Shown piece by piece: positions 12,882 to 15,364 of a stretch of DNA of 64,000 nt; position 1 is the first letter of the stretch; every line of letters begins with the position of its first letter. The stretch comes from Haloarcula sp. H-GB4 (lineage in GTDB: Archaea > Halobacteriota > Halobacteria > Halobacteriales > Haloarculaceae). The translations under genes and the position numbers were made by a program. The notes below the pieces were generated by a model. That model had not been told where the DNA came from. It made no database searches and saw only the letters and a list, made by a program, of their open reading frames with translations. The stretch lies in the NCBI RefSeq assembly GCF_030848575.1, contig NZ_JAVDDX010000001.1:682001-746000 (forward strand), read 5' to 3'.

Positions 12882-14342
12882 TTACAGCGACTGTCCGGCG
12901 CTGAACTGTCTGGCGACCCACTCTGAACTGTCGAGCGTCTCGACGCTGTGCTGCAGGCGCGCCAGCCGGTCACCTCTGTCCGCTTCGTACAGTTCCAGCG
13001 CCCGCTCGATGGCGTCCGCAATCGCCTCGATGTCATGTGGATTGACTGTCAATGCTCCGTCGAGATGGGTCGCCGCGCCGGCCAGTTCACTCAGCACGAG
13101 TGCGCCGTCGCCGTCGGTGCAGGCGACCGGGTACTCGTGGGCGACGAGGTTCATCCCGTCGCGGTGTGGCGTCACTACCGCGACATCAGCAGCTCGGTAG
13201 AGTCCAGCGAGCGTCTCGCTGTCGAGGTTGGCCTCGGTGTAGACGATGGGCTGCCAGTCATCGGTCCCGAAGCGGTCGTTGACGCGTTCGACGGCATCGA
13301 CGACGTCCGCTCGATACCGACGGTAGGCGGCGATGCCCTCTCGCGTTCGACTCGCCTTCTGCACGTACGTGAATTCGCCTCGCAGGTCCGGCCGCCGGTC
13401 CCAGAGGTGTGCCAGCGCCTCGATCCGCTCGGGGATGCCCTTCGAGTAGTCGAGCCGCTCGACGCCGAGCACCAGGCGGATGGACGCGTCCGAGCGACTG
13501 CCGCCCAGCACGGTATCCCGGATACTGGCCACGTCAGCGGCCCGCGCTCGGCTCCGAACCGCTTCGACATCGATACCCAGCGGGTTCGCGACGACTCGTG
13601 TCGTCTCTTCGCTCCGGGTAACCGTCCCGCTGTCCGTGTCGACGGTCGCTGCGGGGAACGCGCTGTCCACGCAGTGCAGGAACTGCTCGGCGTATCCTGC
13701 CGTGTGAAAGCCGATGACATCGCAGGCCAGCAGTCCGTCAAGGAGCGCGTCGCTGTGGGGGCAGTGTCGGAACACCGACGGTGCGGGCCAGGGGATATGC
13801 CAGAACTGTAACAGCGTCGCGTCCGGCCGTCGCTCTCGGACCAGTCTGGGCGCGAGCGCTAAGTGGTAGTCCTGGAACCAGACCGGTTGGCCCGTATCGG
13901 CGACCGTATCGACGGCCGCTGCGAACTGCTCGTTGACGCCTCGGTACTGTTCCCAGTAAGCTGGCTCTGCCCACATCCGGCCCGTGTCCTCGTGACAGAG
14001 CGGCCAGAGCACTTGGTTGGCGTAACCATAGTAATAGCCCTGCACCGCTGCGTCGGAGAGTGGGACGCGTTTCAGGTCGTACGCCGGGTCCGACGGCGGC
14101 ACTTCGACGATGCCCTCGTCGGCGACGGCCATATCGGCGTCGCCGCTACCCCAGGCGACCCAGGTACCGCCCCGTGACTGCATTACCGGGTCGAGTGCGC
14201 TCGTTAGGCCACCTGCTGCGGACTGGACCCGTATCTCGCCGTCGTCGTCCCGCTCGTGGCTATACGGTTCACGATTCGAAACGATCACGAGCGAGTCCGG
14301 AACTACATCGTCCCGCAAATCAATCGACACTCCCGGGCCCAT
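12882..14342 (-). CDS. otsA: Trehalose-6-phosphate synthase (GT20)
   Basis: Joins UDP- or GDP-glucose to glucose-6-phosphate to make trehalose-6-phosphate, a step to the osmolyte trehalose. The 486 residues fit OtsA. Visible landmarks are [13 protein letters not shown] and [10 protein letters not shown] at the N-terminus, [49 protein letters not shown] (phosphosugar and nucleotide contacts) and the C-terminal [14 protein letters not shown]. No OtsB phosphatase is found nearby, so dephosphorylation must be encoded elsewhere. It converges with the lipoprotein gene. ATG 14342 gives the normal start; a TATA-like GTATAGC on the minus strand lies about 55 bases upstream. Confidence 0.95.
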
Positions 14343-14460
14343 TTGCCGCTGGTAAGGACTGCCCCGTCTTGAGGCTGTCGTGGAGCGCTGGTGTAGCTAT
14401 ACAGCGTAACAAGTCATCGCTGCCTGTGAAGCCCGCCATCTGTGTCTGACGGTAAGAGAA

Positions 14461-14470
14461 AACTTATACC
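14461..14470 (+). promoter_or_regulatory. Strong haloarchaeal promoter (BRE/TATA) for the hairpin RNA
   Basis: The stretch GAGAAAACTTATACC (14456-14470) is a purine-rich BRE followed by the TATA element CTTATAC. Its position predicts transcription starting near 14490, at the base of the hairpin RNA and about 180 bases before the mptE start. Confidence 0.6.
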
Positions 14471-14488
14471 GGAGGCCTCGAAAGAAAG

Positions 14489-14545
14489 GGGTGAAAGCCG
14501 AAAGGGCACCCGGGTAGGGGTACACGGACGTGCCATTTCGGCTCA
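14489..14545 (+). ncRNA. Promoter-proximal structured RNA candidate, leader or small RNA before mptE
   Basis: A near-perfect rod hairpin: AGCCGAAAGGGCAC (14496-14509) pairs with GTGCCATTTCGGCT (14530-14543) with a single G-A mismatch; the stem continues as CCG 510-512 with CGG 525-527 and GTA 514-516 with TAC 521-523 around a GGGG loop. A competing helix, GGGTG 14489-14493 with CACCC 14507-14511, would break the main stem, so two exclusive folds exist. A good TATA box places the RNA start at about 14490. It could be an independent small RNA or a control element in the mptE leader. It matches no RNA family I recognise; RNase P RNA, SRP RNA and tRNA signatures are absent. Confidence 0.5.
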
Positions 14546-14671
14546 ACTCGGTTTATCTGGACACGAATCCGGTAGCGACAGCCACGCTGTGGAGAATTTT
14601 GCTGTGGGTGCAGTGTGACTGGTTAGGTGAATAAGACAGAAACACGCCCACCGCGTAGTGCCTGGCAAGAG

Positions 14672-15364
14672 ATGGAATTTCGCACCTGGGAACCAGTATA
14701 TGAGGCTATCCTCGACGACTTCGGCTACCCCCGTGACGGCGACGAGCGCGCCTGTGGCCGCCTCGTCGAACTGCTCGGTGATGATAAGACGTACGACCCG
14801 ACAACCATCGGACTCGACGGTGCAACGGTCGCTATCGCCGGGGCCGGCCCGTCGCTGGAAGCCGAGGCAGACCGGGCAGCTGACGCCGACGTAGTCCTCG
14901 CGGCGTCTACGGCCGCCGACCGCCTCCGGGCGGCAGGTGTCGCCGTTGACTGCATGGTCACGGATCTGGACAAAAATGCCGACACTGGGCGGGAACTGAC
15001 CGCTGACGGGACACCAGTCGTCGCCCACGCCCACGGTGACAACATCCCCGCACTGGAAACCCACATTCCGGCCTACGACAGCAAGTTCGTCGTGCCGACG
15101 ACACAGGCAAGCCCCGCCCTACCGGTCCGCAACTACGGCGGTTTCACCGATGGCGACCGCGCCGCGTTCCTTGCGGACCACTTCGGCGCTGGGTCGCTGG
15201 TGTTCCCCGGCTGGGACTTCGACGACCCGTCTGTGAATGCCGAAAAGCGACACAAACTCCACTGGGCCGAACGCCTGCTGCGCTGGCTGGAACAGCGCCG
15301 CGGCGAGCGCTTCGATGTGCTCGACGGCCGACGCGACGACATCGAGCCAGCAGTGACCGACTGA
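14672..15364 (+). CDS. mptE: 6-hydroxymethyl-7,8-dihydropterin pyrophosphokinase MptE (DUF115)
   Basis: Transfers pyrophosphate from ATP to 6-hydroxymethyl-dihydropterin, giving the substrate of dihydropteroate synthase in archaeal pterin or folate synthesis. The 230-residue protein has the DUF115 features VAIAGAGPSLE, VLAASTAADRLRAAGVAVDCMVTDLD, VAHAHGDN and FPGWDFDD. ATG 14672 is preferred since MEFRTWEPVYEAIL is the common family start; an in-frame GTG at 14627 would add 15 residues. The folP-type gene 6 kb downstream would use its product. The long leader carrying the hairpin RNA is unusual in an organism where most genes here look leaderless. Confidence 0.88.
   Translation: MEFRTWEPVYEAILDDFGYPRDGDERACGRLVELLGDDKTYDPTTIGLDGATVAIAGAGPSLEAEADRAADADVVLAASTAADRLRAAGVAVDCMVTDLDKNADTGRELTADGTPVVAHAHGDNIPALETHIPAYDSKFVVPTTQASPALPVRNYGGFTDGDRAAFLADHFGAGSLVFPGWDFDDPSVNAEKRHKLHWAERLLRWLEQRRGERFDVLDGRRDDIEPAVTD

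Follow-up and report, generated by a model that had tools for sequence, protein, structure and literature searches.

The window (the whole 64,000-nucleotide stretch of DNA analysed) comes from a genome of 4.19 Mb, whose closest named relatives in the mptE search were Haloarcula species. The gene downstream of the element studied here is mptE, as the sequence-only reading had proposed: its product matches PF01973 (MptE-like, 60.5 bits), and its ATG lies at 14672. The upstream gene is on the opposite strand and encodes a glycosyltransferase-family-20, trehalose-phosphate-synthase-like protein. The features of the locus are as follows.

14456 to 14470, plus strand: archaeal promoter (BRE/TATA, GAGAAAACTTATACC) of the hairpin RNA, assigned from its near-invariance in the genus and the fixed TATA-loop spacing
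About 14491 to 14495, plus strand: likely transcript start, predicted from the fixed TATA-to-hairpin distance
14492 to 14545, plus strand: conserved hairpin RNA, assigned from covariation and fold z of −3.1
14492 to 14494 with 14543 to 14545, plus strand: basal helix of the hairpin
14495 to 14496, plus strand: AA bulge of the hairpin
14497 to 14509 with 14530 to 14542, plus strand: main stem of the hairpin
14510 to 14529, plus strand: apical part of the hairpin
14512 to 14523, plus strand: near-invariant apical sequence GGGUAGGGGUAC with exposed GGGG at 14517 to 14520, assigned from alignments and recurring as a motif on stand-alone RNAs
14552 to 14557, plus strand: AT-rich tract TTTATC just 3' of the hairpin, at the same place in all genus members
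14574 to 14582, plus strand: AGCGACAGC motif about 16 nt past the AT-rich tract, common to many mptE-linked loci
14672 to 15364, plus strand: mptE, 6-hydroxymethyl-7,8-dihydropterin pyrophosphokinase

The promoter-like element is present where it had been placed from the letters alone, and the promoter stretch GAGAAARCTTATACC shows next to no variation within the genus. Judging from the TATA spacing, transcription of the hairpin RNA likely starts at about 14491–14495. The 14-pair stem with one mismatch described earlier was recovered as 14497–14509 (GCCGAAAGGGCAC) pairing with 14530–14542 (GTGCCATTTCGGC), which comprises 12 pairs and one G/A mismatch; folding the single sequence adds A14496–U14543 as a 14th pair. 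The GGGG loop and the helix below it were also found at their predicted positions in the apical part. The interval 14488–14560 folds more stably than chance (z = −3.1, dinucleotide shuffles), whereas the whole interval to mptE (14488–14673) does not (z = −1.1), so the signal is the hairpin itself. RNAalifold gave no consensus structure for a second hairpin in the 14546–14582 part.

A second fold, exclusive of the first, had been proposed through a competing helix between 14489–14493 and 14507–14511. This helix can be drawn, yet its covariation score of 0.111 hardly differed from the 0.095 of shuffles, and it showed no covariation within the genus either. Its 5' strand is variable among relatives at 14489–14491 and is probably largely untranscribed, since the TATA spacing places the likely start at about 14491–14493. 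With covariation absent and the 5' strand variable, the two exclusive folds are not supported and were rejected, and the proposed helix does not supply the conserved alternative fold expected of a riboswitch.

Base-pairing of the main fold was strongly supported when covariation among haloarchaeal relatives was examined, as the earlier reading had suggested. The structure scored consisted of a basal 3-bp helix, an AA bulge, a long stem with a wandering mismatch, and an apical helix with the GGGG loop. Across 83 distinct sequences, 17 of the 22 base pairs showed changes on both sides, and 88% of cells were paired in this structure. Double-change cells numbered 166, compared with 44.6 in shuffles; these counts lean towards the stem, since an earlier form of it had guided the alignment. 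None of 500 shuffles reached any of the measures, and slid control structures gave at most 23 double-change cells. An independent MAFFT alignment agreed with the fitted one on covariation, and G-U pairs occur. With covariation exceeding both shuffles and slid controls, a conserved structured RNA is strongly supported. The apical sequence GGGYAGGGGUAC hardly varies; its core G and A positions are invariant in the alignment, and its main variant is U or C at 14515. The G at alignment columns 30 and 31 is constant in identity though the pairing partners vary, so the tip is conserved beyond what pairing needs.

Every one of the 32 genomes in the genus carried the element, which differs very little between them across about 105 nt, with diverged flanks on either side. 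By DNA search, 90 of the family's 146 genomes had it. A covariance model trained on 37 sequences from the family recovered it from 321 of the 392 genomes in the order Halobacteriales (302 of the 345 good genomes), with one copy in nearly all carriers. A wider model of 84 sequences matched 49 genomes in a phylum-wide sample, where all listed matches fell within Halobacteriales; no element was found outside this order among the searched genomes of the phylum. A plasmid collection yielded a single match, at the end of folP in Natrinema thermotolerans, and 84 exact motif matches in viral contigs were taken as mostly chance. The Rfam scan recommended in the sequence-only reading matched no family: with Rfam 15 (4227 families, cmscan), the whole window had no match at or above the gathering threshold, the region 14340–14700 gave nothing up to E = 10, and nine divergent loci of the element were without a match. 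No tRNA was found by a tRNA search, and our literature search returned no relevant paper on the loop sequence or on mptE in Haloferax. The element is a widespread real RNA family, found in no library or paper that we searched. Conservation and covariation give strong support to the earlier proposal that a conserved, promoter-driven structured RNA, be it a leader or a small RNA, precedes mptE.

As expected for a cis-acting leader, the promoter and loop lie upstream of one gene on the same strand across lineages, in 191 of 198 mptE loci. The distance from the TATA end to the loop was 42–47 nt in all 191 scored loci and exactly 44 nt in 147 of them; that from the loop to the mptE start ranged from 37 to 329 nt (median 69). 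This spacing ties the hairpin to the promoter rather than to where the gene begins, which should make it the 5' end of an RNA. Most lineages have folP (dihydropteroate synthase) upstream in the same orientation, and folP, element, mptE is the commonest order and perhaps the ancestral one. In Haloarcula, folP is gone and the opposite-strand trehalose-phosphate synthase gene stands in its stead; the element remains beside mptE. The element is absent from loci where mptE closely follows folP, including those of some Haladaptatus, Halorhabdus, and several other genera; in 14 of 15 such loci the gap is 5–71 nt, measured by the protein match. Ten such genomes were searched, and no confident copy was found elsewhere in them. 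There appear to have been several separate losses at these tight loci. Loss of the element along with the folP–mptE gap favours a function tied to mptE; the same pattern is also expected if a small RNA gene in the gap had vanished with the gap.

An AT-rich tract follows the hairpin in nearly all mptE-linked loci, reading ATTATC, GAATTATTG, ATATTAT, and similar outside the genus. TTTATC may be a weak U-tract terminator or else the TATA box from which a leaderless mptE is transcribed. It stands about 28 nt before the ATG in many Haloarculaceae and in some further lineages, a distance that fits a separate leaderless mptE promoter. Loci of the Halorussus type, and some from Haloarculaceae, have the ATG about 11–25 nt past the hairpin with no TATA at leaderless distance before it, so that the hairpin would be in the message there if the promoter is used. 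Going by these lineages, the mptE transcript is suggested to include the hairpin.

Of 243 genomes, 126 contained the pattern CGGGTAGGGGTACNNG; the reversed control matched very rarely. We read some 30 places with extra copies of the tip away from mptE, and at many of them a hairpin bearing this tip was accompanied by a TATA box and a U-rich tract. Wherever neighbours were recognisable among Haladaptatus and Halorussus relatives, the gene that came next was convergent. A short-form model found 2–4 copies in nearly every sampled genome of the family including Haladaptatus, and longer-stem or other forms of the stand-alone RNA were found in at least two further families. One stand-alone locus type adjoins a ThiR-like regulator gene, and another lies near a 3-hydroxyacyl-CoA dehydrogenase gene. 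Because the stand-alone RNAs have no downstream gene, a shared trans factor is more likely than a simple metabolite switch. Most simply read, the tip on both a cis leader and free RNAs would be the binding site for one trans factor.

The explanation that we prefer, tentatively and with slightly less than even confidence, is that the hairpin is the 5'-terminal leader of mptE and a predicted binding site of a trans factor that the stand-alone RNAs would also bind. The parts of this explanation read directly from sequence are the promoter of its own, the covarying stem, the near-invariant tip, and the constant place before mptE. Transcription from the base of the hairpin would make it the 5' end of the mptE message, and a trans-acting factor, with an RNA-binding protein as the likeliest candidate, would recognise the exposed G-rich tip. 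This factor may set the stability, read-through, or translation of the message by pterin/folate need, and the stand-alone small RNAs may bind the same factor as competitors or parallel regulators. Several lines of evidence favour a leader: the element keeps with mptE in 191 of 198 loci at a TATA-loop distance of 42–47 nt, and it stayed there in Haloarcula after folP loss; covariation is strong, with one copy per genome in nearly all of the 302 of 345 good genomes; and the loop is more conserved than pairing requires and is seen again on stand-alone RNAs. It is weakened by TTTATC at leaderless spacing, which would leave the hairpin outside the mptE message.

An independent small RNA of ~65–75 nt would account for that spacing; it would be transcribed from the CTTATA promoter as far as the AT-rich tract and act in trans via its G-rich loop, with mptE leaderless from TTTATC in many relatives. 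Its own promoter is present, and the AT-rich tract found in nearly all mptE-linked loci might be its terminator or, alternatively, a TATA box. Also in agreement are the stand-alone paralogues, which share the loop and come with TATA boxes of their own, U-rich tracts, and convergent neighbours, and the loss of the element together with the folP–mptE gap, as if it were a gene occupying the gap. However, in several lineages a second promoter would have neither space nor a TATA, the element is strictly co-located with mptE even after folP left, and the loop has no notable complement to rRNA (the longest is 7 nt, and 449 of 500 shuffles do as well). We therefore regard an independent small RNA as possible but rather unlikely. 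As the 7-nt complement is no longer than chance, rRNA was rejected as a target of the loop, and a role of the loop as an RNA-RNA seed is disfavoured because the needed targets were not found. The stand-alone RNAs also bear on a riboswitch, in which the hairpin would bind a pterin or folate directly and control mptE: a metabolite switch needs no free RNAs, and the tip-bearing ones lack a gene that they could switch. The position at a pterin/folate gene, beside folP in most lineages, and the covarying stem with its invariant apical core would suit such a switch. However, the element consists of one hairpin only, its apical core is small, it lacks a multi-helix pocket, no other pathway gene was seen carrying it, and no alternative fold is supported, which makes a riboswitch improbable.

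An inverted repeat followed by AT-rich DNA, with folP upstream in most lineages, could also be a regulator-bound element at the DNA level or a terminator of folP. Such an element would hardly be expected to have its own promoter at fixed spacing, kept where folP is absent, to use G-U pairs, or to carry a strand-specific, non-palindromic loop, and we consider it very improbable. A leader-peptide attenuator reading GTG AAA GCC GAA AGG GCA CCC GGG TAG from 14491 has an open frame of eight codons in the genus, where the start codon is GTG, ATG, or TTG. Elsewhere, however, the start reads GCG, ACG, CCC, or CTG, and the stop becomes CAG in GGGCAG variants. Because start and stop are lost in many relatives, this peptide is largely refuted and scarcely credible.

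Haloarchaeal messages are mostly leaderless. In bacteria, CsrA/RsmA hairpins and CsrB-type sponge RNAs carry a short G-rich loop sequence in mRNA leaders and free small RNAs, and the G-rich loop on the mptE leader and the stand-alone RNAs resembles this arrangement on the RNA side alone. However, the loop here is AGGGGU, not ANGGA, and we know of no archaeal counterpart of the CsrA/RsmA protein. Autogenous mRNA-binding leaders, such as those of ribosomal proteins and of thymidylate synthase, which binds its own mRNA, are likewise single-gene leader hairpins present across a whole order; pure autoregulation, however, would not lead one to expect the loop on free RNAs as well. The bacterial THF (folate) and other cofactor riboswitches are also structured RNAs with a conserved core before a pterin/folate gene, but the mptE element is one long hairpin with an apical core in place of a multi-helix pocket, has stand-alone copies and no Rfam match, and its ligand would be putative. 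Archaeal H/ACA guide RNAs are short hairpin RNAs as well; this identity was rejected, as the alignments contain no conserved ACA box or pseudouridylation pocket and no K-turn. Natural riboswitches are almost unproven in archaea, and the fluoride riboswitch of Thermococcus kodakarensis is the only one tested by experiment (PMC8241225); it is likewise an archaeal structured leader, with a sequence and fold unrelated to the mptE hairpin. Structured-leader control is described as not typical of haloarchaea, Haloferax volcanii included (PMC4983044).

The leader hairpin and the same tip on free RNAs point to an unrecognised RNA-based control system in archaea. Its fullest form, a haloarchaeal post-transcriptional system in which a C-GGGYAGGGGUAC-NNG tip is shared by a near-universal mptE leader and small RNA families and is bound by one putative RNA-binding factor, is a speculative proposal that we think could hold but probably does not in full. 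If true, the stand-alone RNAs would compete for or work with that factor, and the system would be an archaeal analogue of bacterial Csr logic. An order-wide, covariation-backed element absent from Rfam at a folate/pterin gene, whose tip also occurs on stand-alone RNAs, offers a concrete handle on archaeal RNA-based regulation.

Some further observations concern the region directly before mptE. A Natrialbaceae MAG without the element has ~28-base tandem repeats (GCTGTCAGTGGAACGCACAGACACATAC) directly upstream of mptE, at locus positions 1–107. The AGCGAC motif downstream of the AT-rich tract is also found on some of the stand-alone RNAs, including where no gene follows, and it is not general to haloarchaeal leaderless starts (2 of 63). 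In the clade of the window, the mptE start of relatives (AGCTATGG) now reads AGCCACGC, with CACG at the old ATG site (14583–14586), and the start has shifted about 90 nt downstream; an alternative in-frame GTG start for mptE lies at 14627.
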